A stretch of 64,000 nt of DNA from Halomonas sp. Y3 (lineage in GTDB: Bacteria; Pseudomonadota; Gammaproteobacteria; Pseudomonadales; Halomonadaceae). Made by a program: the position numbers and the translations under genes. Positions 44,781-61,614 of this stretch are shown piece after piece. Where the stretch lies: the NCBI RefSeq assembly GCF_024137965.1, contig NZ_CP099975.1, positions 248,001-312,000 of the forward strand, given 5' to 3'. Every line of letters begins with the position of its first letter. Within the stretch, counting starts at the first letter, position 1. Under the pieces are notes generated by a model. That model saw only the letters and a program-made list of their open reading frames with translations, was not told where the DNA came from and made no database searches.

Positions 44781-44888
44781 TCCTACCTAACTCACTGATT
44801 CTGCTGTTTTTGCACTATGCGCTTCCCCTACGTCGGCGCACCTGTGCAGAATGAAGCGCTGTCTGCATCTACCGACAAGGAGGTCGCC

Positions 44889-46118
44889 GTGGGATTTCGC
44901 TTCCAGCGCCGTATCACCCTCGCGCCGGGTATCCGCCTCAATCTGAGCAAGCGGGGCCTCGGGCTTTCGGTGGGCCCGCGGGGCGCGAGCCTCAGCGTGG
45001 GGCCAAGGGGCGTGCACGGCCACGCGGGCATTCCCGGCACCGGGCTCGCCTATCGCCAGAAGCTCAACGCCCGGAGCCGTTCGGCTGGGCGGGGAAGCAG
45101 CGGCGCCGGCCGCGCAAGCCCCGCGGGGAGCCTGGAGGCGCTGCTGGCTCAGGGCGAGTCGCTGCCCATCCGGCTGGATATCGACGGTGATGGCGGCATC
45201 CACTATGCCCACGGTGACGGCACGCCGATGAGCGACGACGAGGCCCGGGTGCTGCGGCGTCATGCCGGAGACTCTCTGCGCGAGCAGCTGGCTCAGCACT
45301 GCGAGCGCCTCAACGCCGACTTGGATCGCCTGGGGCGGCTCCACGAGGAGACGCCCCACCCGGATATCACCGGCTACGTCACCCGAGACTTCGCCGAGGC
45401 GCCGCCGGCGCCACCGGCGCTGCGTCAGCCCGCCGTGTGGCAGCGGCTGTGGCCCCCCGCCAGGCGGCGCGTCGAGGAGGAGAACCTGCGCCGGCAAGCG
45501 GCCTTTGATGAGGCCTATCGTGACTGGGAGTGGCGCAAGGCGACGCACGACGAAGCGGAGTTCGCACGCCACCTTCGTGAGGGAGAAGGCGTGCTTCACG
45601 ACCCGGACGCCATGGAGCAGACGCTGCGTGAACGTCTGGAGGAGATCAACTGGCCCCGTGAAACCGCCATCGACTTCGACCTCGGCAGCGACGTTAGCAC
45701 CATTGCCGTGGATATCGACCTCCCCTGTGAGGACGAGATGCCCGACCGCTACTGGACCATGCCCGCCAAGCAGATCAGGCTCACGCCCCGCCGGCTCAGC
45801 GACACCCGGCAGCGTGAGCTCTATCGAGATCACGTCCACGGCATCGCCTTTCGCGTGCTGGGCGCGGTGTTCGCACGCCTGCCCGCCGTGCAGGAGGCGA
45901 GAATCTCCGGCTATCGCCAGATCACCGACCAGGCCACCGGCGGTGAGCGCGACCAGTACCTGTTCAGCGTGAAGGTTACTCGCGAGCAGTGGAGCAGGAT
46001 CCACTTCGACAGACTGGACCAGGTTGATCCGGTAGCGGCCATGGAGGCCTTTACCCTGCGCCGCGACACGACCAAGACCGGCATCTTCCGCGACATCGAG
46101 CCCTTCAAGCTGGTGTAG
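44889..46118 (+). CDS. DUF4236 domain protein
   Basis: A 409-residue protein from a GTG with AAGGAGG at 44877-44883; an upstream in-frame ATG at 44817 gives a 24-residue extension without family likeness. The N-terminal 60 residues are the DUF4236 motif ([20 protein letters not shown], then [15 protein letters not shown]), a Gly-rich beta repeat whose function is unknown. The rest is charged, with a long helical region and a C-terminal domain beginning around residue 230. It is a single gene between the orphan regulator and the defence operon. Confidence 0.87.
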
Positions 46119-46250: not shown

Positions 46251-49200
46251 ATGCGCGACGTTCTATCCACCTGTCAGCCACGCCCCGAGATCCTGGCGGG
46301 CACCTTCAACCCTGAGATCTTCACCGCCAGCCTGAGCAAGGTGCTGGGTGACTATCGTAAGGGGGAAGCTCGTGAGGGAGCCGTGTCGCTCTACTCCGAT
46401 CCGGTGGCCTTTTTCCGCGATGCCACGCACCCGACCCAGGGGTTGTGCACCATCCTGGACAACGCCTTGGCAAGGCTGACCAACGGTGACCTGTCGCGCC
46501 CGGCCATGCAGCGTCTCGATACCGCCTTCGGGGGCGGCAAGACCCACACCCTGATCGCTCTGGCCCACGCCGCCATGCAGGGGCAGCCGCTGGCTGAGCA
46601 CATGACCGGCATCCTCGCTCCCGAGCGCTTGCCGGCACCGGGCCAGGTGCAGGTGGTCGGCATTATCGGCGACACCGTGGATACCCTGCGAGAAACCGCC
46701 GGTGGCGCTTCGCCCAAGCCCAACACCCTGTGGTGGATGATCGCCCAGCAGACGCTTTCCACCGAGCAGCAGGCCTCCATCCAGTCGCGCCTGGATGACG
46801 CCTCGGCGCCGGCTTCAGATGAGTTCTTCGATACGCTGTTCGGCGACCGGCCGACGCTGATCATCATTGACGAAATCGCCCAGTACCTCTCGCGCATGGA
46901 GGCGGCCTTCCCGGGTGTAGGGGCCGAGCAGTCGGCGGCCTTCCTGATGTCGCTCTCCACCTATGCGGCAGGCAGAGCCAATGTCTCGGTAGTGCTGAGC
47001 CTGGCCTCTGCCACCAATGCCTTCGGCGATTTCAACAAACTGATCCGCAAGCTGCAGTCCACCCACAGCATGAGCTCGGCCGAGGCCGAGGCTGTGGTGC
47101 GCGAGGCGCAGCGTGGCGTGCTGGACGTGGTCAACCGAACCTCGGAGGCCACCACCCCGGTGCAGGAGGGGGATCTCTCTCGCATCATGGCCAAGCGCTT
47201 GTTTGTTTCCGTGGATCATGCGGCAGCTAGTGAAGTGGCCTCGGCATTTATCGAGACCTACCGCCAGGCTGGTACCGATCTTCCTGCCGGTGCCAATGAC
47301 CCGCAGCTGCATGATCGTCTGGTGGCGCACTATCCGTTCCACCCCACGCTGATCGAGTTTCTCTCAGAGGAGCTGGCCCAGGTGGAGAGCTTCCAGGGCA
47401 CCCGCGGCTTGCTGCGTACCCTGGCGCGCGCCGTGCGCCGTATCTGGGAGGCGAAGCTGGCGATTCCGCTGATCCAGACCGGCCATATCGACCTCTCGGA
47501 CAGCACCATCCGCAACGAGCTGCTGGGCAAGACCGAGAACAGCGATCTCGTCCCCGTGCTGGATTCCGACATCAGCAAGGCCTCCGGCACCCAAGCCACC
47601 AGCCGCACTGTGGCTGGCGAGCTGGATGCCGCCAACCCTCATCCGGATGGCTACCCGGTGCATGAGTGGGCCTGGCGTGCGGTTTTCCTGCACAGCCTGA
47701 TCGGCCGCGGCGGAGGCCTGCAAGATGAGAAGTTCGGTATCGACATCACCTCGGCGGTCTATGAAATGGCCTCGCCGGCCATCAAGCCCGCTACCGTGCG
47801 CTCGGCGCTGGAAACCATCGAGCGAGAGGCTAACTACCTGCGTGAGCGCAATGGGCGCCTCTACGCCGATACCGTGCCGACTCTCAACAACATTCTGCGC
47901 CGCATCGAAGGCAACGTCGCTCATGCCGAAGCGATGACGCGGGTCGAGCAGGTGGTGCGCAGCCTGATCAAGGGCTCCTCTGTGTTCGATGTTCACCCCA
48001 ACATCGATGACAGCGAAGGCATCCCCGACAAGACCCCTAAGCCACAGCTGGGCATCCTCGCCTTCGAGGTGGAAGAGATGGACCCGGCGCGCTTCATCGA
48101 GCGGCGCGGTGACGCGGTGCGTCAGTACCAGAACCAGGTCTTCCTGCTGGCCCCCAGCACTACCCACATTGCGGGTACCACCTGGACAGAGTCACGCACC
48201 CACCAGGAGCACCGAACCCGGCAGAACATCCTCACCCTGGCGCGCAAGGCGATTTCCCTGGAGCGCCTCAAGGAGAACCCCGAGAACTGGGGCGTCAGCC
48301 ATGAGCAGCTGCAGAAGGGCGAGTTCAAGGATCGCGCCGCCAAGAGTCCGGCCGAGCTGCGCACCGCCATCGATGAAAGCTACCGCTTCCTGATCTACCC
48401 GGGGCGTGAGGGCGGTCGCGTGGTGGTCCGCGATCTCGGTAAGCGGGGCACGGGCCCGACCGCGGGCGGCTCCGGCGGTATGCACCTGGAGGATGCCATT
48501 CTTAAGCAGCTGGCTGATGAGGGAGAGCTGATCACCGACGAGCGCGCCTCCACGGCAGAGGCCATCACTCTTTTGGGGAAGCTGTTCTTCGATAGCCTCA
48601 AGCAAGTCAACGTCAGCGACTTGATCGAGCGCTTCGCGACTCGCCGGAACTGGCCGATCCTGCAGCGACCGGCGCTATTGGCGACCGTGCTGGTAGAGGG
48701 TGCCAAGCGCAGCAGCTGGTGCCTGGGCCATATGCCCGACAAGAACAGTCACAAACCCGATGACCTTTACCACAAGGACAATCAGCCGCCTCTTACGGTG
48801 GAGCCGCTGGAGAACGGTGGGGAAGGCTGGATCCTCTGCACCAAGGAGCATGCCAAGCAGCTGGGCTGGCTGGAGAGCATTGTCCGCGACCCCAACACCG
48901 TAGGCCCTTGGGTAGAGCAGACCATCGAGAGCCGTGAGCAGGTAGATATCGCTCAATTGGAGCGATATCTGGAGCAGGACCATGACCGAGTCGATGGTCA
49001 AGTGCTTCAGCAACAGCTAAATAACCTGCTCGCTACGAAAAAGCTGGTCGCTTTTCCCAAAGAAGCTTTCGATGAAAATGGGGATGCGGACCCAGAGCAG
49101 GCAATGACCGGCGATACAGTGCCTCTTGGTGGCGTGTCAGACGGGATTGCTGTCACCTACCGATACGCGCAAGAAAGGGGGTGGTTGCTCCAACCCAAGG

Positions 49201-49517
49201 TTGAGGTGCGCAACTTTCTGCTGCGTACGCCCGAGAAAATCAAGCAGCTGTTCAACCTGCTCTCCGGCACTGGACTGGCCCAGTCGAAGACCGAGGTGCA
49301 GACTGTTCAGATCGGCGCGGAAACCCCTGATAAGGGCCGCTTTCAGCTGATCCTCGGCCCGACCACAGTAGGCGCCCTGGTCGAGAGCCGAGCGCTTTTT
49401 TCGGCGTTGAACAGCCGCCTGAAGTTCAACACCGAGCAGCATCAGGTACGCCTGACGCTGGGTGAGCTGGACCCGAACTGCAAGTTCACCAAGATGCTAG
49501 AGCAACTGGAAGGATAA
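46251..49517 (+). CDS. DUF499 ATPase, first gene of an Hma-type defence operon
   Basis: A 1088-residue ATPase. Walker A is in AFGGGKTHTLIALAHAA near residue 90, and Walker B is LIIIDEIAQYL near 203. DUF499 proteins recur in defence islands next to DUF1156 methylases and SNF2-type helicases; the three-part set has been named Hma (helicase, methylase, ATPase). A role in DNA sensing or in driving the complex is inferred. An open 132-base gap precedes it, probably holding the operon promoter. It is nine bases from the next gene. Confidence 0.9.
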   Translation: MRDVLSTCQPRPEILAGTFNPEIFTASLSKVLGDYRKGEAREGAVSLYSDPVAFFRDATHPTQGLCTILDNALARLTNGDLSRPAMQRLDTAFGGGKTHTLIALAHAAMQGQPLAEHMTGILAPERLPAPGQVQVVGIIGDTVDTLRETAGGASPKPNTLWWMIAQQTLSTEQQASIQSRLDDASAPASDEFFDTLFGDRPTLIIIDEIAQYLSRMEAAFPGVGAEQSAAFLMSLSTYAAGRANVSVVLSLASATNAFGDFNKLIRKLQSTHSMSSAEAEAVVREAQRGVLDVVNRTSEATTPVQEGDLSRIMAKRLFVSVDHAAASEVASAFIETYRQAGTDLPAGANDPQLHDRLVAHYPFHPTLIEFLSEELAQVESFQGTRGLLRTLARAVRRIWEAKLAIPLIQTGHIDLSDSTIRNELLGKTENSDLVPVLDSDISKASGTQATSRTVAGELDAANPHPDGYPVHEWAWRAVFLHSLIGRGGGLQDEKFGIDITSAVYEMASPAIKPATVRSALETIEREANYLRERNGRLYADTVPTLNNILRRIEGNVAHAEAMTRVEQVVRSLIKGSSVFDVHPNIDDSEGIPDKTPKPQLGILAFEVEEMDPARFIERRGDAVRQYQNQVFLLAPSTTHIAGTTWTESRTHQEHRTRQNILTLARKAISLERLKENPENWGVSHEQLQKGEFKDRAAKSPAELRTAIDESYRFLIYPGREGGRVVVRDLGKRGTGPTAGGSGGMHLEDAILKQLADEGELITDERASTAEAITLLGKLFFDSLKQVNVSDLIERFATRRNWPILQRPALLATVLVEGAKRSSWCLGHMPDKNSHKPDDLYHKDNQPPLTVEPLENGGEGWILCTKEHAKQLGWLESIVRDPNTVGPWVEQTIESREQVDIAQLERYLEQDHDRVDGQVLQQQLNNLLATKKLVAFPKEAFDENGDADPEQAMTGDTVPLGGVSDGIAVTYRYAQERGWLLQPKVEVRNFLLRTPEKIKQLFNLLSGTGLAQSKTEVQTVQIGAETPDKGRFQLILGPTTVGALVESRALFSALNSRLKFNTEQHQVRLTLGELDPNCKFTKMLEQLEG

Positions 49518-49526
49518 TCACCGCCG

Positions 49527-50159
49527 ATGGCCACTACCGCAAAGAAGGCGGCCCCCCGCGCGCGCCGCAAGAGTCACCAGGCCGATGAGGCGCAGCTGGC
49601 TAAATTGGCCAAACGCTCACCCTATGTGCTGCGCCTGACGCGCCACAAGGACCTGCCGCCGCCGGTGCTGATCATCAAGGAGCGCATCGCCCCGGAGGAC
49701 CGCGACGACATCGAAGGGCTCACCAACCCGCGCGCCAAGCACGTGGAGCGCGGCACCCTGCATGGTGATAGCGTGCGCGCCTGCCTGCCGGTGCTCAAGC
49801 GTATCCTGGAGGAGGTGAAGGATGAGCAAGGAATTCCTCTGGGCCTGGAGAGCTATATGTCTGCCCAGGGGCTCAAACGGAGTGATCTAAACTTCCCCCT
49901 GGATGAGGCCGCCGGCGCCCGCCTGGCGCTATTTTTCCGCCTGCAGAGCAAGGTGAAGGACGTCGACCGCATCGAGCTGATCGGCCGCCGGGTAGCGATG
50001 TTCTCCCGGGAGGAGGCCGTCTACTGGCTGGCCAACGTCACCACCGCCGACCCCGCGCTGCGCAGCTGGGCCACCAGCGGGCTGCGCATGCTGCTGTGTG
50101 GCGAGGCCGGCGACAAGCGGGTGCCACGCATCCTGGAGAAAGTGCGTGCCCGTGGCTGA
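49527..50159 (+). CDS. Small accessory protein of the Hma-type operon
   Basis: A 210-residue basic protein. After a Lys/Arg-rich N-terminus it reads PYVLRLTRHKDLPPPVLIIK and RIELIGRRVAMFSREEAVYW. It matches the small protein regularly found between DUF499 and DUF1156 genes (possibly DUF7680 type; I am unsure of the number). No catalytic motif is visible. It lies between the ATPase and methylase genes, so it is probably a subunit or adaptor of the defence complex. Confidence 0.78.
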   Translation: MATTAKKAAPRARRKSHQADEAQLAKLAKRSPYVLRLTRHKDLPPPVLIIKERIAPEDRDDIEGLTNPRAKHVERGTLHGDSVRACLPVLKRILEEVKDEQGIPLGLESYMSAQGLKRSDLNFPLDEAAGARLALFFRLQSKVKDVDRIELIGRRVAMFSREEAVYWLANVTTADPALRSWATSGLRMLLCGEAGDKRVPRILEKVRARG

Positions 50160-50281
50160 GCACTGACACAGCAGCTGCTTGGCGGGTGTCGCCAGGCAAG
50201 CAAGGTAACTGGGCGCTTTGCGCCGCCGACATCATCAGCCAGGCCAGCCGCCTGGCTGTCGCTTTACAAGGAAGCAGCACC

Positions 50282-53200
50282 ATGGATTTCAGCAACGACC
50301 AGCGCCTGATCGAAGCCGGCTTTCCCTGCCACCAGGTGGGGGCGGAGACGCGCCGTGAGCGCGATACTGGTAAGCAACCACCTACTTCTAGACTACATGT
50401 CTGGTGGGCGCGTCGTCCTTTAACCCCTAGCCGCGCAGCCATCTTGGCGTCCCTGCTGCCTGCCGATGCTGACCCCGAGCAGTTTATTCGTGATTTGGGG
50501 ATCGTGCGGTGGCAGGCAAAGTTAGGCGAGCAGCGCTGGACTCTGGCGAGTGAAACCATAACCACGCGCATCCATCAGGAGGATAATGGCAGTTGGGTAT
50601 TGCCCGTCGACAAGACTGTGCTCAAGGCAGTGGAAAAGGAGCAGCAGCGCCGTGAGGCCTGCCGCGAAATGGTCGATCAGCTGGAGCAGGCTAGCCCCGA
50701 ATTTCAGCAAGACCCCGTGGTACAGGGCTGGAAATTAGATATCCAGGAGCTGCCCACCATGGGCGTCTATGTTGGAGCCAAGCTTGAAGTTTTGCCAGTT
50801 ACAGCTGATCCAGCTGGCGTTACTGAAAAGCTTGAATTTGCCAAGCGAGCTGACGTCAAGAAAGCCCTTGGTAAAGCCATTCGCTGGGACCCGGAAGACT
50901 CCTACGGCTATTCCCGTGCCTTTGCCACGCCGATTCAGCCGCTGCCAGAGAGTGAGCGCAAGGTGGTGCTGGACCCCACCTCGGGTGGGGGGTCCATTCC
51001 CTTCGAGGCACTGCGCCTCGGCCATAAGGTCATCGCCAATGAGCTCAATCCAGTTGCCAGCGTTATTCTCAAGGCTACGTTGGATTACCCTGCTCGCTTT
51101 GGTGAAAGCCTGCTCGGTGATCTTGAGAAGTGGGGAGGCGAGCTGAAAAAAATAGTAGAGTCCAAGATGGCTCCATTTACCCCGTTTGGGAAAATTCCTG
51201 GCAATGAAATCTCCAAGCTGGAAGTGTGTTTGCAAAAAAACCCAGAACTAGTTGGGGAGTATACGGATGAATATGATCAGCAAGGGCTGCTTTATTGCAG
51301 ACAGGTAGCCTGTCCTCACTGCGGAGGTGATGCGCCGCTGCTTAATTCCTTATGGCTGTCCAAGAAAGGGGAGTCATGTGGGGTGGCGATCAAGCCTCAG
51401 CCCGACAAGACAGTGCGCTTCGAGCCCTTTGAGGTGACAGCAGGCAACCGTGGACCCAACGGAGAAGACCTGGATGCTGGTACCGTAACCCGCGGTGTAG
51501 GCCAATGTGTTCACTGTCATCAGGCGATCTCGGGTGATGAAATCAAACGCCAGGCACGTGGCGAGTCTGAACATGGTAAGTGGCAGGATATTCTCTATGC
51601 TGTAGTGGGCGTGCGCATTGAACCTAAGCTGGACAAGCATGGCAATTTGCAGCGCTTTGCCTCAGGCGAGCGTAAGGGAGAGATCAAGACCCAGAAAGTA
51701 CGCTACTTCCGTGCACCGACCGAAATAGATCTACAGGCACTGCAGTCGGCAGAGTGTGAGCTTGAAGAGCGGCGCGTGGATTTTGAGATGAAAGGGCTTG
51801 TGCCTAATGAGCCTTTTCCCCAAGGTAACGATATGCGTCCAATTAACTATGGGATGCCAACATGGGCGGATATGTTTACCCCGCGCCAGCTGCTTGGCCA
51901 TCTGACTGCGATGGAGGCGCTACAGGATGCGAAGCCGAGGATTTTAGAGGAGCTTGGCAAGGAGCGAGGGTGTGCAGTTATTACATATTTGCAGCTCGGT
52001 ATCGACAAGTTTGTTGATTATAATAGCCGGCAGACACGTTGGATTCAGCAGCGCGGCCAGGTCTCCGGGACTTTTGGGCGTCATGACTTTTCACTAAAGT
52101 GGACGTTTGGAGAGATGGTTTTTTCGGGGCCGTCATCGGGTTTTTCTTGGGCGCAGAAATCAGTTTATGAGGCTTTGAGTGAGATAATAAGGCTGGTTGA
52201 TCCTGTCCATAAAATTCATGGTGGCGATACTGCTGGCGGCCTGATACAGTTTAAGGGAACTGCAGCTGACATTAGTGGATTGGAATGCTCTTCAGTCGAT
52301 GCTGTTGTAATGGACCCTCCGTATTATGATAATGTCCAGTATAGTGAGCTTTCCGACTTTTATTATGTTTGGCAGAAGCGCTCACTAGCCGATCTCTACC
52401 CGGAATGGTTCGATGATGAAGTGACCGATAAAGCTTCTGAAGCTGTAGCCAATCCTGCGCGTGATGGTTCAGCCAAAAGTGCCAAGGCTCGCTACGAGGA
52501 GCTGATGCAGGGCATCTTTGCCGAGAGCAAGCGGGTGCTCAAGCAGGATGGCATCATGACGCTGATGTTTACCCACAAGAGCTCCGATGCCTGGGAAACT
52601 CTGACCAACTCCCTGATTCAAGCTGGTTGGGATATCACGGGGACTTATCCTGTCGATTCCGAATTCGGCGCGTCTACTCACCAACTCAATCTCGCCGCTG
52701 CGGCCTCCACCATCTTTATCGCCTGCCGCCCAGCGGATCGCGGTGATCGTGAACCCTCCAGTTGGGCCTACGAGGTCAAGGGCAAGCTGGAAGCTGCGGT
52801 ACGTGAAGGTCTGGGCGAATTCGAGCGCCTCAAGCTCAACCCCGTGGACCGTATGATCGCCTCCTGGGGCCGTGCCCTGCGTGTCTACTCCGCCCACTGG
52901 CCGGTACAGGATGGCGACGATGAGGTGCCGCCCACCCGCGCCATGCAGGAAGCGGCTCGCGTGGTGGCAGAAGAAGAGGTCAGCCGCCTTTCCGGTGGCT
53001 TGGTCACCGTCGACGACCTGGACGCCGAATCTCGCCTGGCTGTGATCGCCCTCGGCATCAACGGCCTCGGCGACTTCGCCTTCGATGACGCGCTGCAGAT
53101 GAGCCGCTCGCTCAACTTCCGCCTGCAGAATCGCAACGGCAACTACCGCGTCAGCGACGACATGGTGGCCTATGCCAACGTCGGCGAAGACGAGCGTGCC

Positions 53201-53473
53201 GCCCCGCTGGCCATCCGCGGCAACAAGTTGCGCTTGCTCAAGCCGGAAGAACGCGCCGCGGCCCGCCTGGAGAGCCCACAGACGCTGTGGGACGTGCTCG
53301 GTGGGCTGATCGTGACGCATCGTGAAGGTGGCATCGTCGCCGCGCGTAACTACCTCAGCGAGCATGGCAAGCGCGATAGCGACGCCCTGCGCGGCCTGCT
53401 CAAGGTGTGGGCCAAGGAGTGCCGCGACGATGAGCTCAAGCGCGAAGCCCAGCTGATCGACTACGAGCTGTAA
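50282..53473 (+). CDS. DUF1156 DNA methylase of the Hma-type operon
   Basis: A 1063-residue DNA methyltransferase. DUF1156 is at the N-terminus (LHVWWARRPLTPSRAAILAS near residue 38). The SAM-binding motif is LDPTSGGGSIPFEALRLG near 229 and the catalytic motif VVMDPPYYDN near 675, so N6-adenine or N4-cytosine methylation is expected. Two Cys pairs (CPHCGG near 343, CVHCHQ near 408) suggest a zinc ribbon. The ATG at 50282 follows AAGGA. The segment 50700-52450 is clearly more AT-rich than its flanks, which suggests exchange of the central, target-recognising part. Confidence 0.93.
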   Translation: MDFSNDQRLIEAGFPCHQVGAETRRERDTGKQPPTSRLHVWWARRPLTPSRAAILASLLPADADPEQFIRDLGIVRWQAKLGEQRWTLASETITTRIHQEDNGSWVLPVDKTVLKAVEKEQQRREACREMVDQLEQASPEFQQDPVVQGWKLDIQELPTMGVYVGAKLEVLPVTADPAGVTEKLEFAKRADVKKALGKAIRWDPEDSYGYSRAFATPIQPLPESERKVVLDPTSGGGSIPFEALRLGHKVIANELNPVASVILKATLDYPARFGESLLGDLEKWGGELKKIVESKMAPFTPFGKIPGNEISKLEVCLQKNPELVGEYTDEYDQQGLLYCRQVACPHCGGDAPLLNSLWLSKKGESCGVAIKPQPDKTVRFEPFEVTAGNRGPNGEDLDAGTVTRGVGQCVHCHQAISGDEIKRQARGESEHGKWQDILYAVVGVRIEPKLDKHGNLQRFASGERKGEIKTQKVRYFRAPTEIDLQALQSAECELEERRVDFEMKGLVPNEPFPQGNDMRPINYGMPTWADMFTPRQLLGHLTAMEALQDAKPRILEELGKERGCAVITYLQLGIDKFVDYNSRQTRWIQQRGQVSGTFGRHDFSLKWTFGEMVFSGPSSGFSWAQKSVYEALSEIIRLVDPVHKIHGGDTAGGLIQFKGTAADISGLECSSVDAVVMDPPYYDNVQYSELSDFYYVWQKRSLADLYPEWFDDEVTDKASEAVANPARDGSAKSAKARYEELMQGIFAESKRVLKQDGIMTLMFTHKSSDAWETLTNSLIQAGWDITGTYPVDSEFGASTHQLNLAAAASTIFIACRPADRGDREPSSWAYEVKGKLEAAVREGLGEFERLKLNPVDRMIASWGRALRVYSAHWPVQDGDDEVPPTRAMQEAARVVAEEEVSRLSGGLVTVDDLDAESRLAVIALGINGLGDFAFDDALQMSRSLNFRLQNRNGNYRVSDDMVAYANVGEDERAAPLAIRGNKLRLLKPEERAAARLESPQTLWDVLGGLIVTHREGGIVAARNYLSEHGKRDSDALRGLLKVWAKECRDDELKREAQLIDYEL

Positions 53474-53485
53474 GGAGAGAGGCCC

Positions 53486-54880
53486 ATGCTCACTGAGCTG
53501 CGACTGCAGAACTTCAAGGCCTGGCGGGATACCGGGCCTATGCGCCTGGCGCCGCTGACGGTCATTTTCGGTACCAATAGCTCAGGCAAGTCGAGCTTGG
53601 GCCATCTGCTGATGGCTCTTAAGCAGACGGCGCTGCTGACCGATCGCAAGCGCTCCCTGCACCTGGGCGACGACAACTCGCTAATCGATCTGGGCACCTT
53701 CGAGGACTGCCTGCATGACCACGATCTGAACCAGGCGCTGGGCTTCTCGCTGAGCTGGAAGAGCCGCAAGCCACTTGAGCTGAACGACATCCTCAATCCT
53801 GACCAGACCTTTTGTGGCGATGAGCTCACACTGGAGGCGGAGATCGCGGCCAGCAAGGCACAGCAGCCCGAGACGCGACAGTTCTCCTACTCCCTGGGCC
53901 AAGGTGATGACGAGGTGCTCAAGGTTCGGCATGGGCGCCGTGACGGCAAGGCATTTCTCAAGTGCGATCCGCTGCGGCTGGTGCATGCCCAGGGCCGGAA
54001 CTGGGGCGTCGAATCGCCGGAGAAGTTCTACCGCTTCTCGGACAAGACGCTGTCGCGTTACCAGAACGCGCACTTCCTGACCGACTTCGTGCTGGAAGCC
54101 GAGCAGCTGCTGGAGAACTTCTACCACCTCGGTCCACTGCGCAGCCCGCCCAAGCGTGTCTACCCCTGGTCGGGTGATACCCCGCCCGATGTGGGGGCCG
54201 AAGGTGAGCTGACCATTCCGGCGATACTGGCCGCCACCCAACAGGGGCGGCAGCTCAACCGCGGGCCCAAGCAGAAGTATCAACCCTTCGACGCCTTTAT
54301 CGCCGGCTGGCTGAAGAACTTGGGCATCATCCATGAGTTCAAGGTCGAGCCCATTGCGAAAGGGCGCAAGGAGTATGAGGTGCTAATCCAGGCCCATGCC
54401 GGTGCGCCCTGGGTGAAGCTGACCGATGTCGGTTTTGGTGTCTCGCAGATCCTGCCGGCCCTGGTGCAGGCCTTCTATGCCCCCCCACACTCGGTGCTGT
54501 GGATGGAACAGCCGGAAATCCACCTCCATCCGCGCGTTCAGGCTAATCTGGCTGATGCTTTCATCAGCGCAATCCATGCGCGAGAGAACGGCGAGAACCG
54601 TAACACCCAGCTGATCATCGAAAGCCACTCCGAGCACTTCCTCAACCGCCTGCAGCGGCGCATCGCCGAAGGTGAGGTGACGCCCGATGAGGTGGCGGTC
54701 TACTTCGTGACGCGCAATCGTCAGGGTGCCCACCTGGAGCCGCTGCGGCTCAACGAGTACGGCGACATCGAGAACTGGCCGGATGACTTCTTCGGCGACG
54801 ACATGGAGGACATCACCCAGCGGGCGCTGGCTGCGGCACGCAAGCGCAAGGCCAGGAAGGCACAGGAGGCCGGTGCATGA
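53486..54880 (+). CDS. DUF3696 AAA-type ATPase, embedded in the Hma-type operon
   Basis: A 464-residue ABC/OLD-like ATPase. Walker A is FGTNSSGKSS near residue 27, the signature region LTDVGFGVSQILPALVQA near 313, Walker B LWMEQPEIHLHP near 337 and the H-loop LIIESHSEHF near 375. DUF3696 occupies the C-terminus (YFVTRNRQGAHLEPL and onward). It overlaps the PIN gene by four bases, so the two are translationally coupled. ATPases of this kind commonly control a partner nuclease in defence systems. It lies between the methylase and helicase genes. Confidence 0.9.
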   Translation: MLTELRLQNFKAWRDTGPMRLAPLTVIFGTNSSGKSSLGHLLMALKQTALLTDRKRSLHLGDDNSLIDLGTFEDCLHDHDLNQALGFSLSWKSRKPLELNDILNPDQTFCGDELTLEAEIAASKAQQPETRQFSYSLGQGDDEVLKVRHGRRDGKAFLKCDPLRLVHAQGRNWGVESPEKFYRFSDKTLSRYQNAHFLTDFVLEAEQLLENFYHLGPLRSPPKRVYPWSGDTPPDVGAEGELTIPAILAATQQGRQLNRGPKQKYQPFDAFIAGWLKNLGIIHEFKVEPIAKGRKEYEVLIQAHAGAPWVKLTDVGFGVSQILPALVQAFYAPPHSVLWMEQPEIHLHPRVQANLADAFISAIHARENGENRNTQLIIESHSEHFLNRLQRRIAEGEVTPDEVAVYFVTRNRQGAHLEPLRLNEYGDIENWPDDFFGDDMEDITQRALAAARKRKARKAQEAGA

Positions 54881-55419
54881 GGCGAGCCGTGGTCGATACC
54901 AACGTGCTGTTGGTCGCGAACAGTGACCATGCGGATATCTCCGAGGAGTGCGTGATCACCTGTATCGAGGCGCTCGATAGCCTACGCCAGGGTGGGGTCA
55001 CGGTGATCGATGACGAGTGGCACATCCTGAGCGAGTACCATCACAAGCTGAACCCGAACCGGGGCCAGCCGGGGCCAGGCGATGTCTTTCTCAAACATCT
55101 GCTACGGCAGCAGGCTAACCCCAAGCACGTCGCCGAGGTGTCGGTTACCGAGAGCGCCGATGACTGGTTCGAAGAATTCCCCGACCATGCGCTGCAGCGC
55201 GAATTCGACCCGCCGGATCGCAAGTTTATCGCCGTGGCGGCGGCCGATGCTGAGAACCCGCCCATCCTCCAGGCCGCGGACTGCAAATGGCTAAACTGGT
55301 GGGAGCCGCTGTCTCAGGCTGGCGTGCACTTTCGCTTCGTCTGTCCCGGTGACGTCGAGCGCTTCTACGCGCAGAAGTTTCCCAACCAGACCATGCCCGA
55401 GTTTCCACCAGATGAATGA
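54877..55419 (+). CDS. PIN-domain nuclease partner of the DUF3696 ATPase
   Basis: A 180-residue protein of PIN-like pattern. The first acid is in AVVDTNVLL (Asp7); further acids lie in VIDDEWHILSEYHHK near residue 45, DRKFIAVAA near 114 and AADCKWLNWW near 134. The spacing agrees with the metal-binding set of PIN RNases. It overlaps the ATPase gene by four bases and the ligase gene by eight. RNA cleavage released by the ATPase on infection is a reasonable inference. Confidence 0.82.
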   Translation: MRRAVVDTNVLLVANSDHADISEECVITCIEALDSLRQGGVTVIDDEWHILSEYHHKLNPNRGQPGPGDVFLKHLLRQQANPKHVAEVSVTESADDWFEEFPDHALQREFDPPDRKFIAVAAADAENPPILQAADCKWLNWWEPLSQAGVHFRFVCPGDVERFYAQKFPNQTMPEFPPDE

Positions 55420-56098
55420 CTTCTTCCGTTTCCCCCACACCCCGCACCTTGCCTGGCTGGGAGAGGGGGAGCCCCGCGACGATAAGCTGCTGGACCCTCC
55501 TGAGGCAGAGGCACTGCTCGCGGGCGAGGTGCTAGTGGAGGAGAAGCTGGATGGCGCCAACCTGGGCATCTCCTGGGGGGATAACGGCCTGCTGCGTGCC
55601 CAGAACCGCGGGGCCTACTTGGAGGCCCCGTTCCGCGGGCAGTTCTCGCGCCTCAACCAGTGGCTCATGCAGCACCTGGCCAGTTTCCAGGCTCACCTGC
55701 CCGAGCATGTCATCCTCTTCGGCGAGTGGTGTGCCGCACGCCACTCCCTCGACTACGCCAGCCTGCCGGACTGGTTCCTGGTCTTCGATGTCTACGACAG
55801 CCAGGCCCGGCGCTTCTGGAACCGGGAGCGGCGCAATGAGCTGGCCGCGCGGCTCGGCCTGGCTACCGTGCCCCTGTTGAAGAGCGGGCGCTTTACTGCC
55901 AGGGAGCTGGAAGCGCTGGTGCGCAATGGCCGCAGCGGTTACCGGGAAGGCAAGCTGGAAGGCATCGTCATCCGTCAGGATGGCCCCGAGTGGTGCGAGC
56001 GCCGCGCGAAGCTGGTGCACCCTGACTTCGTCCAGCAGATCGAGGAGCACTGGCGCTCCCGGGCGCTGGAGTGGAATGAATTGGCAGCACAACAATAG
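55412..56098 (+). CDS. RNA ligase family protein
   Basis: A 228-residue nucleotidyltransferase. Motif I is KLDGAN, with the adenylated Lys45 and Asp47; motif IIIa is ILFGEW (Glu105), motif IV EGIVIR (Glu183) and motif V RAKLVHP (Lys200). This is the complete core of Rnl2-type RNA ligases, shorter than T4 Rnl2. It starts eight bases inside the PIN gene, and both genes follow the ATPase without a gap. An RNA-joining enzyme coupled to an RNase suggests repair or immunity of the RNA that the nuclease cuts. Confidence 0.88.
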   Translation: MNDFFRFPHTPHLAWLGEGEPRDDKLLDPPEAEALLAGEVLVEEKLDGANLGISWGDNGLLRAQNRGAYLEAPFRGQFSRLNQWLMQHLASFQAHLPEHVILFGEWCAARHSLDYASLPDWFLVFDVYDSQARRFWNRERRNELAARLGLATVPLLKSGRFTARELEALVRNGRSGYREGKLEGIVIRQDGPEWCERRAKLVHPDFVQQIEEHWRSRALEWNELAAQQ

Positions 56099-56127: not shown

Positions 56128-57828
56128 ATGAGCACAATCAAGGGAAGCGACCTAAAGCTGCACAAGGTCTTGTCTAGTGACTATGAGTTTCATATTCCGG
56201 AGTATCAGCGACCCTATGCCTGGGAAGTAGAGCAGGCAGAGGAGCTTTTCGAGGACCTATGGACCTTCATGGAACAGGAGGACAAGTCAGAAGAGTACTT
56301 CCTGGGTAGCATTGTGCTGGTCAAGGATGACAAGACCAATCGTGCTGATGTTGTCGACGGCCAGCAGCGGCTGACCACGTTGACAATCCTGCTTTCGGCT
56401 ATTCGGGATCGGCTTCAAGGTAATGGTAAGTGGGGAGCCGCCTTCGACAAGTACATCATGGAGCCTGGCGATATTACATTGGATCTCGAAGAGAAGCCTC
56501 GGTTATGCCTGCGTTCCCGGGACAGCGAATTCTTCAGCCGCTATGTGCAAAACCCGGGCGGGATGGCCGAACTGGCCAGTCTTGATGTCAGTCGCTATCA
56601 GGATTCTCAGCTGAACATCATTCAGAACGGTAGCTACTATATTGATCGACTTGCCAACCTCGAGGAGGAGCAGGTGGGTCGCTTTGGTCAGTTTATTATA
56701 AGAAATTGCATCCTTGTCCTCGTCTCAACGGAGAGCTTCAAGTCAGCCTATCGGATCTTCTCCGTAATGAATGATCGAGGGCTGGACCTCGAGCCATCGG
56801 ACATCCTCAAAGCCAATATTATCAGCGGTATCGGGGAGCGTGAGAGAACTCAGTATACCGAGCGCTGGGAAGATGCCGAGATCCGTTTGAGCCGCCGAGG
56901 CTTCAATGACCTGATAGCTCATATTCGAATGATATTCCGAAAAGAGAAATATCGTCGTTCAGTGCTTGATGAATTCAATGACTATGTGGTGAAGGCGGTT
57001 CCTGGCAGCAAGACTCTGATGGATGAAGTCATCCTCCCCTATGCCGATGCTTTCGAGGTGATCAGAAACCAGTCGTTTGTCAGCTCAGAGAGGGCTGAGA
57101 GCATCAATGAGCTGTTCAGTTGGCTTCATCGCGTCAACAACATGGACTGGGTTCCAGTTGCCATGGAATTTGTGCGTCGCTATGAGGGTAATACTGAGGC
57201 TCTAGAAAAGCACTTGGTCATGCTAGAGCGCTTGGCGGCCAGCATGTTCATTCGCGGCGTTTATGTGACTCCCAGGGTTGAACGCTACGGGCGGGTGCTG
57301 ACCGAGTTAGAGGCTGGAGTGAACCTCCTAGATGAAGGCTCTTCCCTTGACCTCACCCCTCAGGCGCAGAGGGAGACCCTTGAGCGGCTGAATGGTAACG
57401 TCTATGACTACCCGGCACTGTTGCGCATGTACATCATGCTGAGGATGGACTCTTTCCTTGCGGCAACGACCGTCAGCTACAAACACAAGACCACGACGAT
57501 CGAGCATGTGTTGCCTCAGAATCCGAGCGAAGGTTCCCAATGGTTGGAGAATTGGCCCGAGGAGGAGCGTGAGGAGTGGACGAACAGGCTGGGAAATCTG
57601 GTTCTTCTGTCACGTCAGAAGAATTCGGAAGCATCGAATTACGACTTTGATCTCAAGAAGCAGAAGTACTTCCAGACGCGCAATGGGGTCTCACTCTATG
57701 CCTGTTCGACGCAGGTCTTGAACCACCAGCGCTGGACTGAAAAAGAAGTGAAGACAAGACAGCACGACTTGCTGAATGTCTTTTCCAGCAACTGGAAGCT
57801 CAAAGGTCTGGATCTCGTCACCCGCTAG
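56128..57828 (+). CDS. DUF262/DUF1524 (GmrSD-like) nuclease
   Basis: A 566-residue protein joining both halves of GmrSD-type restriction enzymes. The N-terminal DUF262 domain has FHIPEYQRPYAWEVEQ near residue 22 and VVDGQQRLTT near 76. The C-terminal DUF1524 HNH-like domain has TTIEHVLPQNPSEG near 456 and LGNLVLLSRQKNSEA near 488. GmrSD enzymes use nucleotides and cut modified phage DNA. The coding DNA is less GC-rich than its neighbours, which points to separate acquisition. It is 29 bases after the ligase gene and 15 before the helicase gene. Confidence 0.92.
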   Translation: MSTIKGSDLKLHKVLSSDYEFHIPEYQRPYAWEVEQAEELFEDLWTFMEQEDKSEEYFLGSIVLVKDDKTNRADVVDGQQRLTTLTILLSAIRDRLQGNGKWGAAFDKYIMEPGDITLDLEEKPRLCLRSRDSEFFSRYVQNPGGMAELASLDVSRYQDSQLNIIQNGSYYIDRLANLEEEQVGRFGQFIIRNCILVLVSTESFKSAYRIFSVMNDRGLDLEPSDILKANIISGIGERERTQYTERWEDAEIRLSRRGFNDLIAHIRMIFRKEKYRRSVLDEFNDYVVKAVPGSKTLMDEVILPYADAFEVIRNQSFVSSERAESINELFSWLHRVNNMDWVPVAMEFVRRYEGNTEALEKHLVMLERLAASMFIRGVYVTPRVERYGRVLTELEAGVNLLDEGSSLDLTPQAQRETLERLNGNVYDYPALLRMYIMLRMDSFLAATTVSYKHKTTTIEHVLPQNPSEGSQWLENWPEEEREEWTNRLGNLVLLSRQKNSEASNYDFDLKKQKYFQTRNGVSLYACSTQVLNHQRWTEKEVKTRQHDLLNVFSSNWKLKGLDLVTR

Positions 57829-57843
57829 CGCAAGGAGGCCACC

Positions 57844-60800
57844 ATGCCATTACGCGACTACCCCTGGGAGCCCAGCTACGCCACCTCTGATATCCGAGAC
57901 GATGGCAAGCAGGTGGATGTGCTGCACGACTTCTATATCCCGGCGCTGAACCGGGCGATGCGCTACGACCGTGTCGCCGGCTACTTCAGCTCTTCGTCAC
58001 TGGCGGCCGCGTCTCAGGGTTTTTCGCGCTTCATCGAGAACGGTGGGGAGGCGCGCTTCGTGGTCGGGATGCAGCTCGATCCCGATGATGCGGCAGCGAT
58101 CCTGCAAGGCGACGAGCAGCGTGCCAGCCAGGCCATGCTGGCAGAGCTGGCATCGAGTCAACAGTGGCCTTCTGCCATGCGACATGGTGTCGAGCTGCTG
58201 GCGTGGATGGTGGCCAATGGCTACCTCAGCATTCGCGTTGGCCTGCGGGTGCATGCCAAGGATGGATCACCGCAACCTCTGGATTACGCCCAGGATGGCT
58301 ACCTCCATGAGAAGTGGGCGATTCTCGGCGATGGCCAGGATGAGCTTTACATTTCCGGCTCGCTCAACGAGTCCAGGACGGCGCTGGCTATCAATGCCGA
58401 GAACATTAATGTGCATCCGTCATGGGAAGACTGGGGGAGAAAGGCGATCCCTCAGAAGCACCGTAACTTCAAGGCGCTGTGGCAGGGCAACCATCCGGCG
58501 ATCAGGACCTTTTCACTGCCCGAGGCGGTCGAGGCCGAACTGGTGAAGATTGCCCGCAACGCCGGCAGCCTGTTTGAGATTGATGGCACGCCGATGAGTA
58601 CTCACCCGAGGCAGGTGAGAGAGAAGGATGAGCTCACACCGAGCTTTGCCGAGAGGCTTCGCTTCGCCATGCTGCGACTCGCGCCCCTGCTGCCGGGCGG
58701 GGAGCGTGTCGCCATCGAAACCACGCCCATCGAGCCCTGGCCGCATCAGCGCTTCGTTGCCAATCGCCTGCTGGAGACCTACCCCCGCAACCATCTGCTG
58801 TGTGACGAGGTAGGCCTTGGCAAGACCATCGAAGCCGGGCTGGCCTTCCGGGCTCTGTGGCTGAGTGGCCGTGCCAGCACCATCCGGGTGTTTGCGCCGG
58901 CCTCGCTGACCTCGCAGTGGCTGGTGGAGATGGCCGAGAAGTTCTATCTGCCTTTTGTCAGGCGCACTAGCCGCAAGGGGCGCTGGGAGCGTATCGACCT
59001 GCTGGATGGCGAGCCGGAGCAAGGGCAGGGCCAGATGTTCGATGCACCGCTGGAGATCATCTCGACTGGATTGGTGATCAACCGCCACGGCGGTAGGCTG
59101 CTGGCCAATCTTCCCGAGACCGACCTGGTGCTGGTGGACGAGGCCCACAAGGCCCGGCGCCAGACGCCTGACAACCAGACCGTCATGCCGCGCTTCAACA
59201 AGCTCTACCAGGAGCTGCAGGGTGCGCTATATGGAAAGTCGCGTACTCTGCTGCTGGCCACCGCCACGCCGATGCAGCTCAACCGCGTGGAAGCCTTCGA
59301 TCTGCTGAAGCTGATGCCTTCCGCCGGGGCTGTCCAGTTCTCCGAGGATCTGTGTGAAATCTTCTACCGGGTGCGCGACAAGCTGATCCACCAGGAGCCG
59401 ATGGCTCATTATGAAGGCGAATGGCTGTGTCGCTACCTGAACAATGTGCGGAGCTCTTCTCCGGAGCAGTGGCACTTCGTCAATGAGCATGTGCTGAGCC
59501 CGTTCGGTAAAACTGGACTGGAGGACTTCACTGATCGTTCATTGGAGCCGATGATCTGGGATGAGGTGCAGCCGGCGCTGAGCCTGTTGGCACCGCTGGG
59601 GCGCAGCATGCTGCGGCACACACGCTCGCTGCTGCGCGCCTATCAGCGTGAGGGGCTGCTTAACGCCAACCTTGCCTGGCGTGAGGTTGCCCCCAGCATC
59701 ATTCCGCTTGGCGGCGTCGAGCGGGAGGTCTACGACCAGCTGCAGGAGTACTGCGCCGACCTGGCAAGTCATATGGCTGCCAACATGGAGGAGGGCCGGC
59801 AGCGCGCCGCCATCGGCTTCTACCTGAGCTTCTTGCGGCTACGCTTCGCCTCGTCCTTCCATGCGCTGCACTGCTCACTGAAGCGACGCCTGGACAAGAT
59901 CCAGCAGACGCTTGACCACAAGGCGCAGCAGGTCGCGACCACGGATGGCTCACGTGAAGAACTCGAAGAGCTGAGAGACGATGAGGTGGAAGGGTTGGTG
60001 CTTAAGCACCGCACAGAGAGTGACCTGACCTGGGAGCAGGGCGCCGTGTCGCGGCTGATTGCCACCATGGACAAGCTACCCGCCACGCCGCGCAAGATGC
60101 GTCAGCTGCTGGAGCATATCGACCAGCGGCGCATCAATAGCAGCGACCGAGTCCGTCAGCTGGTGCTGTTCACGCGCTACACCGACACCATGGATTACTT
60201 GCACGAGGAGCTGCGCCGGCGGCTGCCCGGCTGCCCGATCGGCACCTTCTCCGGCGCCGGTGGCACATTGCGTCGGCCCGGTGAGTTTCGGCCGGAACGG
60301 ATGGACCGAACAACCATCAAGCAGCGCTTCGTGGCGGGCAACATCGATATCCTGCTGTGTACTGATGCGGCCGCCGAGGGTCTCAACCTGCAGAGTGCCG
60401 ATCTGCTGATCAACTTCGACCTGCCCTGGAACCCGATGATGCTGGAACAGCGAATCGGCCGTATCGACCGCATCGGCCAGCATCACACGCAAATCCAGGT
60501 GCTGAACTACCTCTATCAGGGCAGCGTGGAGGAGGTGGTTTACTCACGTTTGGTCAAACGCTTCCGCGAGGCGCTGACCGTCTCGGGTGAGTTGCAATTC
60601 TCGCTTTTGCCCATCCAGCCCGAGGATTTCGAGGACTACGCCAAGGCCGAGGGGGAAGAGGGCAAGATAGACGAGGAGGAGCTGATTCGCCGCGCGCAGG
60701 AGCACGCGAAGCGGATCCAGGAGCGCCAACAGCTCACCGAGTTCAAGGCCGAGGAGCAGAAGGCCGCCTACGAGCACCTGGAGGCACAACAGCGGCGTGA

Positions 60801-61614
60801 GCCGCTGCCGGCTTCACTGGAAAGTATCTGGCGTATCATCAGCGAGAGTGACTACCTGAAGGCATTGGGTGGTGGGATCGAGAGCTTCGCTCATGGTGAT
60901 GCCTTCCGTCTGGTGGACGTTCCAGGCGTACCGCGCGACGTGCTGCTGACTACTTCTCGTGAACTATTCGAGCATGGGCTGGGTGCCGACGACCGGCGAC
61001 GCCTGCATTTCGCCACCTACGGTGACCCCGTCTTCGAGAACTTGCTCGACTACATGTTGCAGCCCTTCGCGGCCGTGCTGGCGGCATGGCATGCGCGCAA
61101 GCCACTCTCGGCACTGCAGCTCGGTGGCCAACGCTGGGCGACCACGGATGACCTTCTGGAGGGCGAGCTGCCTGAGAGTGGCGAGATCGAGCTGGTGCCT
61201 CGGGCGCAGCGGGTGCCGGGGCGTCAGGATGATCGTGTCGGCCGACAGCAGAAGGTGATGCTTGACGCCGCGGCCGCCAGCCTGGCCGAGCAGAAGCTCA
61301 AACCCACCCCGGATACTCCCAATAACCAGATAGCAGAACTGGACCGGTTCCGAGGCGATGTTAGCCAGCGCCATGGCCAACGAGTGCACCTCAAGTTCGA
61401 TGCACCGGATCGCAATGGCATGCTGGCCTTGAAGGACACGTTGCTATGGCCCGTTCGTGAGAAGGCTGCCGGTCTTCAGGTCGATGCCGACCCTCTGCTG
61501 CTCACAGCAACGCGAGACGTGATCTACCGCCAGCTGGGTGATATGAAGAAGGACAGTCGCACGGGACATGAAGTGGCGAGGAGATTGAGAGAGTCGGCTG
61601 CCGGCATGCCGTGA
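57844..61614 (+). CDS. SNF2-type helicase with PLD-like N-terminus, last gene of the Hma-type operon
   Basis: A 1256-residue protein. The N-terminal PLD-like domain has HEKWAILGDG near residue 155 and YISGSLNES near 168. The SF2/SNF2 motor has LLCDEVGLGKTIEAG near 318, LVDEAHKARR near 430, LLATATPMQLN near 470, LVLFTRYTD near 773 and QRIGRIDRIGQH near 868. A long charged C-terminal part follows. A helicase of this type completes the DUF499-DUF1156-helicase trio. The PLD domain may be a nuclease or a DNA clamp; only one HKD-like motif is clear, so nuclease activity is doubtful. Confidence 0.92.
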   Translation: MPLRDYPWEPSYATSDIRDDGKQVDVLHDFYIPALNRAMRYDRVAGYFSSSSLAAASQGFSRFIENGGEARFVVGMQLDPDDAAAILQGDEQRASQAMLAELASSQQWPSAMRHGVELLAWMVANGYLSIRVGLRVHAKDGSPQPLDYAQDGYLHEKWAILGDGQDELYISGSLNESRTALAINAENINVHPSWEDWGRKAIPQKHRNFKALWQGNHPAIRTFSLPEAVEAELVKIARNAGSLFEIDGTPMSTHPRQVREKDELTPSFAERLRFAMLRLAPLLPGGERVAIETTPIEPWPHQRFVANRLLETYPRNHLLCDEVGLGKTIEAGLAFRALWLSGRASTIRVFAPASLTSQWLVEMAEKFYLPFVRRTSRKGRWERIDLLDGEPEQGQGQMFDAPLEIISTGLVINRHGGRLLANLPETDLVLVDEAHKARRQTPDNQTVMPRFNKLYQELQGALYGKSRTLLLATATPMQLNRVEAFDLLKLMPSAGAVQFSEDLCEIFYRVRDKLIHQEPMAHYEGEWLCRYLNNVRSSSPEQWHFVNEHVLSPFGKTGLEDFTDRSLEPMIWDEVQPALSLLAPLGRSMLRHTRSLLRAYQREGLLNANLAWREVAPSIIPLGGVEREVYDQLQEYCADLASHMAANMEEGRQRAAIGFYLSFLRLRFASSFHALHCSLKRRLDKIQQTLDHKAQQVATTDGSREELEELRDDEVEGLVLKHRTESDLTWEQGAVSRLIATMDKLPATPRKMRQLLEHIDQRRINSSDRVRQLVLFTRYTDTMDYLHEELRRRLPGCPIGTFSGAGGTLRRPGEFRPERMDRTTIKQRFVAGNIDILLCTDAAAEGLNLQSADLLINFDLPWNPMMLEQRIGRIDRIGQHHTQIQVLNYLYQGSVEEVVYSRLVKRFREALTVSGELQFSLLPIQPEDFEDYAKAEGEEGKIDEEELIRRAQEHAKRIQERQQLTEFKAEEQKAAYEHLEAQQRREPLPASLESIWRIISESDYLKALGGGIESFAHGDAFRLVDVPGVPRDVLLTTSRELFEHGLGADDRRRLHFATYGDPVFENLLDYMLQPFAAVLAAWHARKPLSALQLGGQRWATTDDLLEGELPESGEIELVPRAQRVPGRQDDRVGRQQKVMLDAAAASLAEQKLKPTPDTPNNQIAELDRFRGDVSQRHGQRVHLKFDAPDRNGMLALKDTLLWPVREKAAGLQVDADPLLLTATRDVIYRQLGDMKKDSRTGHEVARRLRESAAGMP

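Follow-up and report, generated by a model that had tools for sequence, protein, structure and literature searches.

A stretch of 64,000 nucleotides from Halomonas sp. Y3 (contig NZ_CP099975.1, positions 248,001 to 312,000; the window below means the whole of this stretch) carries, inside an operon of the Hma type, three consecutive genes for an ATPase, a PIN-like protein and a small RNA ligase:

53486..54880, forward strand: HEC-03B-type ABC/OLD-like ATPase with DUF3696, the proposed sensor or gate (PADLOC, Pfam, Walker motifs)
54877..55419, forward strand: HEC-03A nuclease of PIN/VapC fold, the proposed RNase effector (PADLOC, invariant acids, VapC-like fold)
55412..56098, forward strand: minimal ATP-dependent RNA ligase of 228 amino acids, the proposed resealing enzyme (PF09414, catalytic residues, model matches)

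The ATPase and PIN-like frames overlap by 4 bases and the PIN-like and ligase frames by 8 bases. These stop/start overlaps, together with the catalytic residues, had been reported in a first-pass annotation of the sequence, and both were derived again from the window. The ATPase contains the Pfam domains AAA_15, AAA_21 and DUF3696 as well as a Walker A (GTNSSGKS) and a Walker B motif (...LWMEQPE), and it matches HEC-03B in PADLOC with an E value of 4e-129. The PIN-like protein matches HEC-03A in the same library (E 5e-27), and Pfam gave no match to it at E 0.1. Residues D7, T8, N9, D45, E53, D111 and D114 are invariant in all 44 PIN sequences aligned, every one of which matches HEC-03A; the acids that the annotation had expected are intact. 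The AlphaFold model of the PIN-like protein has a pLDDT of 95.4. Foldseek alone found nothing under E 0.001 for it, the FEN-like nuclease ExoIX being among the weak matches, and a second look by structural alignment was led by VapC/PIN toxins (Z 9.2 downward) in a list mostly of PIN proteins, those of the RNase P type included. A profile search of the PIN alignment against solved structures returned chance matches only (best E 0.39). By its model the protein has a PIN fold, its acidic active site is conserved, and RNase activity is predicted for it. The ligase belongs to PF09414 (E 2e-34, 120 bits against a Pfam cutoff of 27) and has no match in the PADLOC library. Its K45, E105, E183 and K200 are intact in the window and invariant in 43 of 43 aligned sequences; E105 is located in FGEW, which we take to be motif III and not IIIa. 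The model of the ligase has a pLDDT of 86.8 and the nick-sealing RNA ligase of Naegleria as its best match (5cou, E 1e-8), with T4 Rnl2 lower (2hvr, E 5e-6), and a profile search of the ligase alignment against solved structures gave weak ligase matches (best E 0.004). At 228 residues the enzyme appears to consist of the nucleotidyltransferase domain and little else.

The recurrence of the trio was followed from the ligase and from the PIN gene. The ligase-side loci are the best 80 of at least 552 confirmed relatives in GTDB genome contigs, picked by ligase similarity; rates from them describe the near ligase family, and the samples drawn by PIN are the fairer test. In 74 of the 80 loci the ligase is directly preceded by an intact PIN gene with the motif DTN[VI], and the distance from PIN end to ligase start is -8 to +90 bp in all 74 and -8 to +22 bp in 72 of them. 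In the other six the PIN is cut by the contig end (L035), is left as a tail at the contig end (L063), as a C-terminal piece only (L073) or as its last residues only, recognised by eye (L052), the contig starts inside the ligase (L074), or there is no PIN (L018). In 64 loci a match of more than 90 bits to the HEC-03B-type ATPase precedes these genes in the same orientation, some of these matches being partial at contig ends. The 16 loci without it comprise the three at contig edges (L035, L063, L074), the two with a damaged PIN (L052, L073), L018 and ten clean PIN-ligase pairs. Seventy-eight loci are from Pseudomonadota, and Verrucomicrobiota and Chloroflexota are represented by one metagenome-assembled genome (MAG) each; some MAG loci are possibly mis-binned, and L014 and L126 are possibly one genome, as are L075 and L132. 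Among viral contigs one PIN relative was confirmed, a full ATPase-PIN-ligase trio (L149), and six ligases were found, one of which (L150) belongs to the close ligase group.

Starting from PIN, we drew on three samples that overlap: 369 genomes searched with the HEC-03A family (6 positives), a phylum sample of 398 genomes searched with the PIN alignment A1 (15 positives), and 399 genomes of the order of G547 searched with the same alignment (13 listed, with G802, at E 9e-4, set aside). Together they hold 28 different PIN-positive genomes. The ATPase adjoins PIN on the same strand in all 28 and the ligase adjoins it in 22, G828 being scored as having both partners though its ATPase-PIN and its PIN fragment-ligase lie on two contigs. 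Since PIN occurs in 15 and the ligase family in 18 of the 398 genomes of the phylum sample and the two are adjacent in 11, the adjacency of PIN and ligase is far beyond chance. A ligase mostly separate from the ATPase-PIN pair, which the first-pass annotation had named as a finding contrary to its reading, is ruled out by the PIN adjacency in 74 of 80 loci (ATPase in 64) and in 22 of 28 PIN genomes. On plasmids PIN was found in 12 records, nine of which also have the ligase, in NZ_AP022111 as a split gene about 1.6 kb from PIN. The three records without ligase are from Acinetobacter soli, and in one A. soli plasmid locus (L093:3639-6296) the HEC-03 pair lies in a DISARM-like operon with an HNH gene directly behind PIN, leaving the ligase slot empty.

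The ATPase and the PIN protein are co-inherited; the ligase is not co-inherited with them and switches partners. Identity matrices were compared for 60 loci having the complete trio, with an ATPase row of at least 350 residues, plus the window (61 rows), and the Mantel correlation was 0.84 for ATPase and PIN, 0.30 for PIN and ligase and 0.36 for ATPase and ligase. All three are higher than all 999 permutations, and the distribution of the ligase is therefore loose, not random. By single linkage at 40% identity the 75 PIN proteins (74 loci and the window) fall into two groups, which are 24% identical to each other; their ligases, by contrast, share 62% identity across the two groups and 63-64% inside each. 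The two PIN groups are separated by one change each in the ATPase tree and the PIN tree, both built by a quick method. The ligase trees were built by a careful method, and the one with 75 rows has 15 changes of PIN clade (14-15 over bootstraps), at least 9 of them forced by starred, well-supported branches. When the 23 rows in or near a DISARM-like operon were removed, 52 rows were left with 6 changes, at least 4 of them forced; L053, whose operon label comes from a distant weak match, is outside the 24 loci counted as DISARM-like yet omitted from this tree. As 15 switches in the ligase tree stand against one in the ATPase and PIN trees, the pairing has been re-made repeatedly and is not mere inherited linkage.

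The same is seen when single loci are compared. In the closest cross-group pair (L021 and L071) the ligases are 88% identical, the PIN proteins 23% and the ATPases 34%. Nine chosen locus pairs were also compared as DNA. Between L055 and L033 homology resumes in the first ligase codons and continues at 88.5% over 2.4 kb, and DNA far upstream is homologous too. Between L018 and L027 a common stretch of 164 bp stops at the ATPase start and homology returns in the ligase at 84%, the payload being PD-T4-4 in the former and HEC-03 in the latter; in other pairs, L051 and L050 among them, the match is confined to the ligase and a short part of the ATPase. That different ATPase-PIN lineages repeatedly came to lie in front of the ligase is the strongest point for a reversal of PIN cuts by this enzyme. 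The first-pass annotation had seen the cassette as a self-contained module, which is right in that the trio recurs outside Hma operons and PIN and ligase are strongly coupled. It does not hold as one co-inherited unit (15 against 1 changes), and 6 of 28 PIN genomes have no ligase, 10 of 80 loci are PIN-ligase pairs without ATPase and one ligase stands behind PD-T4-4.

By genomic context, 4 of the 80 ligase loci are in Hma operons. Another 24 are DISARM-like: the trio has around it a helicase resembling DpdE/DrmD, a methylase resembling DrmMI, an HNH gene, or several of these, of a kind common to these loci. The other 52 are in neither type of operon. The PIN-ligase pair is intact in 48 of these 52, and the genes 3' of the ligase vary widely among the loci. 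With just 4 of the best 80 loci in Hma, the trio as something belonging to Hma is ruled out.

Two kinds of locus depart from the trio. The ten clean PIN-ligase pairs without ATPase retain all catalytic residues in the seven that were aligned. Six of them lie beside hrpB (L024, L039, L044, L045, L061, L066); in L024, L045 and L066 yicC, an RNase PH gene and a phosphoribosyltransferase gene are also found downstream, L039 continues with other genes, and the contigs of L044 and L061 end too early to show the downstream genes. These hrpB-side pairs look vertically kept. The remaining L047, L056, L065 and L076 all have a common GspA-like AAA gene and further genes upstream. Given such pairs, there is some slight suggestion that the ligase can replace the ATPase as a restraint. 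The other kind is L018, one locus in one MAG, where the two genes before the ligase match PD-T4-4_A (E 5e-203) and PD-T4-4_B (E 2e-93). As the PD-T4-4 pair stands directly before the ligase, the ligase has here passed to an ATPase-nuclease pair of another type. In the same locus (L018:7968-8741 and neighbours) the ligase is followed by a DUF3800/PDC-M04A gene and, at a greater distance, by a duplicate of its own 3' end.

Ligases without PIN differ from these in their neighbours. The phylum sample has seven such matches of the same Pfam family, namely a fragment (G007), a marginal match (G617) and five usable places (G224, G547, G572, G683, G139), and in all five a phosphatase/kinase-like gene with HD and AAA_33 lies beside the ligase; its Pfam domains were checked for three of the five and for two plasmid loci. 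The best 80 ligase loci gave no match to a gene of this HD + AAA_33 type, the only kind of end-healing gene that was searched for. Loci L088, L089, L141, L143, L144 and L145 hold a deeper ligase clade with the HD + AAA_33 gene as a two-gene cassette, which looks like an RNA repair system apart from defence ATPases. Metal-dependent PIN cuts are expected to yield 5'-phosphate and 3'-hydroxyl ends, and no end-healing would therefore be needed after them. Most ribotoxins produce 5'-OH and 2',3'-cyclic phosphate ends (PMC4411300; this and the other sources are cited from the portions of their text that were available), so that healing is needed before such a ligase can act. The end-healing contrast fits a resealing of PIN cuts and counts as little more than one comparison.

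The reading that we favour, and to which we give an about even chance, is that the trio is a defence module in which an ATPase gates an RNase and the repair enzyme can be detached. In this module the HEC-03B ATPase would sense phage infection and license the PIN enzyme, and the PIN enzyme would cut RNA, most likely of the translation machinery in the manner of VapC toxins, judging by its fold and acids. The ATP-dependent Rnl-type ligase would join the 5'-phosphate and 3'-hydroxyl ends directly and without end-healing, and in this way may reseal stray cuts in uninfected cells, allow recovery or set a threshold. It would thus be an enzymatic antidote, which undoes the damage instead of binding the toxin, and an exchangeable part of the system. 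A precedent is provided by WonB, the nuclease of an ABC-ATPase pair resembling PD-T4-4, which is described as shutting translation down (PMC12137116).

Several observations weigh against this reading. Because six of the 28 PIN genomes (G699, G380, G434, G547, G240, G070) have the ATPase-PIN pair without a ligase, the ligase can be dispensed with, at least in the presence of the ATPase. As the ligase was the route by which the ATPase-free pairs were reached, these pairs cannot show that PIN never occurs alone, and the PIN-first samples contained no PIN without ATPase, which weakens the suggestion that the ligase can replace the ATPase. The end-healing contrast spans two deep ligase clades and thus amounts to hardly more than one evolutionary event, the profile of the HD-kinase type was built from six loci of the same kinds as those scored, and the PIN-free ligase of the Vibrio plasmid locus L090 has neither a PIN nor an HD-kinase-type gene beside it. 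Furthermore, PD-T4-4_B, the partner of the ligase in L018, has been modelled as a PD-(D/E)xK nuclease (PMC12137116).

It could also be that PIN and ligase form a second active arm, which cuts and rejoins RNA by splicing, circularisation or tagging, and that the altered RNAs regulate the cell or block the phage. Ten of 80 loci retain the PIN-ligase pair without ATPase, and in six of these the pair occupies a single chromosomal position next to hrpB; this suggests a standing role and not solely a defensive one. HARP with Rnl3, the other pairing of a PIN-fold RNase and an RNA ligase found in print, has been proposed to make circular RNAs (PMC12153264). We nevertheless regard such an arm as unlikely: the ligase is dispensable in 6 of 28 PIN genomes, the ATPase present at most loci is of a type that accompanies defence nucleases, and a gene for an RNA substrate was not noticed beside the trio, though none was searched for. 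Somewhat more doubtful still is a stronger form, in which PIN and ligase would be a machine whose output is programmed RNA rearrangements (splices, circles, reversible nicks), with the ATPase as a later or optional trigger and the pairs lacking ATPase, kept at a fixed housekeeping site, as domesticated versions. The position of the trio raises another explanation, that the ligase is part of the host operon, be it Hma or the DISARM-like operon of helicase, methylase and HNH, and that its link to PIN is hitchhiking through a recombination slot. DISARM-like genes of one shared kind do surround the trio in 24 of 80 loci, and ATPase and nuclease are swapped between common flanks that include the ligase. 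The 52 loci in neither operon, 48 of them with an intact PIN-ligase pair, argue against it, as does the PIN-clade switching that remains when the operon loci are removed (6 changes, at least 4 forced), and we find it, too, rather improbable.

The ligase might instead guard against RNA damage generally, whether of foreign origin or triggered by phages, and merely share defence islands with HEC-03. Ribotoxin damage is mended in vitro by a bacterial RNA ligase that works with end-healing partners (PMC4411300), and relatives of the present ligase occur also in phages and apart from PIN genes. Mere neighbourhood leaves unexplained that the partner is the same, that the frames are tight or overlapping, and that this holds for two PIN clades and several genomic contexts; no match to an HD-kinase-type gene was found beside the PIN-linked ligases either. 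We hold a general repair role to be unlikely as well. Least probable of all, we think, is that DNA or structured nucleic acid is the target of the PIN-like protein, as with FEN-like nucleases, and that the ligase seals other nicks of the host rather than RNA products of PIN. The weak Foldseek match to ExoIX would be in line with such a substrate, but the second-look list is headed by VapC toxins and includes RNase P-type PIN proteins, and the first matches of the ligase model are nick-sealing RNA ligases.

In the window the trio is accompanied by the following genes of the host operon:

46251..49517, forward strand: DUF499 AAA+ ATPase, HmaC-like, first gene of the host operon (PADLOC HmaC E 1e-64; Pfam DUF499)
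49527..50159, forward strand: DUF7680 protein of the host operon (Pfam DUF7680 E 1e-31)
50276..53473, forward strand: DUF1156 DNA methylase of the host operon, HmaB-like, its start chosen within an open frame that begins at 50096 (PADLOC HmaB E 4e-71)
56128..57828, forward strand: GmrSD-family (Orf5/HEC-06) protein, a second embedded candidate (PADLOC Orf5 E 1e-161; Pfam GmrSD_N/C)
57844..61614, forward strand: SNF2-type helicase (HmaA / PLD_Helicase), last gene of the host operon (PADLOC PLD_Helicase E 8e-66, HmaA E 3e-54)

The HmaC and HmaB matches 5' of the trio and the SNF2-type helicase 3' of it agree with the operon type given in the first-pass annotation, which had also placed the trio correctly between methylase and helicase while passing over the GmrSD-family gene between ligase and helicase. 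In Pfam the helicase has a PLDc_2 match below threshold (E 0.025). The GmrSD-family gene is a second exchangeable insert in the operon: L009 and L127 lack it between their ligase and helicase genes, and in L010 it is 51% identical to that of the window while the trio is 92-99% identical. Directly 5' of the Hma operon (44817-46118) lies a gene for a DUF4236 protein that matches type IV restriction enzymes weakly. Further upstream (9000-44000) there are conjugation-type genes (TraG-D C-terminal, TraC, TraG_N) together with a topoisomerase and DnaB, and genes for tRNA-Phe, tRNA-Gln and tRNA-Thr are located at 214-542; the defence island is therefore probably carried by an integrative conjugative element. 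A tRNA-Ala called by ARAGORN at 42442-42518, inside the TraG_N gene, is probably false.

The closest known system is HEC-03 (Hma-embedded candidate 3 of PADLOC), as the adjacent ATPase and PIN genes of the window have strong HEC-03B and HEC-03A matches and lie within an Hma operon; the ligase link, the partner switching and the ATPase-free pairs fall outside the pair modelled in PADLOC. In the available text of one study several Hma-embedded candidates are antiviral and HEC-06 is named among them, HEC-03 not (PMC12988326), and the available portion of a survey merely lists HEC-03 (PMC13356809). HARP, a protein-only RNase P, resembles the present case in that the gene of a PIN-fold RNase is linked with that of an ATP-dependent RNA ligase, Rnl3. 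Its PIN and ligase families are different, the gene order is typically bidirectional and no ATPase partner is reported in the text available, where a toxin-antitoxin idea is raised and doubted for one species (PMC12153264). Membership in HARP-Rnl3 was rejected, as the window PIN has no Pfam match and the ligase scores 25.3 bits for TIGR01209 against a cutoff of 136.9. VapBC was rejected as well: there is no VapB-type antitoxin gene, and with PIN overlapping both the ATPase (4) and the ligase (8) there is no room between them.

Phage defence by a pair of ABC ATPase and nuclease is known from PD-T4-4, which came from a functional selection for anti-phage genes (PMC9519451) and has been likened to WonAB; WonAB aborts infection and WonB inhibits translation. 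The effector there is a PD-(D/E)xK nuclease, not a PIN, and a ligase is not mentioned in the part of the source available (PMC12137116). Cutting of tRNA by defence systems and its repair by a ligase are described for PARIS (AriA-AriB) and for PrrC with T4 Pnkp-Rnl1 (PMC12409363, PMC10264068). In those cases the repair ligase is owned by the phage and acts with a kinase, whereas the window ligase is in the operon of the cutter and no kinase was found. PARIS membership, which would require AriA and the Toprim protein AriB, was rejected, since the ATPase matches AriA at E 1e-21 compared with 4e-129 for HEC-03B and the effector matches HEC-03A only. Bacterial ligase-based mending of ribotoxin-cut RNA is also known from Pnkp1-Rnl-Hen1, a three-protein complex for healing, sealing and methylating, for which the available text mentions neither a nuclease nor an ABC ATPase as partner (PMC4411300). 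The first-pass annotation knew of no described system with this trio; the ATPase-PIN pair is in fact catalogued as HEC-03, and only the ligase link is new. The literature searched contained no report of the ATPase-PIN-ligase trio and none joining DUF3696 with an RNA ligase, surveys of ABC ATPases, RNA repair and PIN classification lying outside the search, and the novelty of the trio is thus provisional.

Toxin-based immunity normally restrains its effector by binding or gating. If the reading favoured here is true, a defence system that encodes the reversal of its own RNA damage would represent a different way of avoiding self-harm and would let cells recover from a false alarm. As a portable part, the ligase could then also serve as a lead, since the nucleases found before it, PD-T4-4_B included, may cut RNA and leave ligatable ends. 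It would also place RNA repair on the host side of the contest between bacteria and phages, where such repair is chiefly known from the counter-measures of phages, as in the case of the T4 ligase against PrrC.

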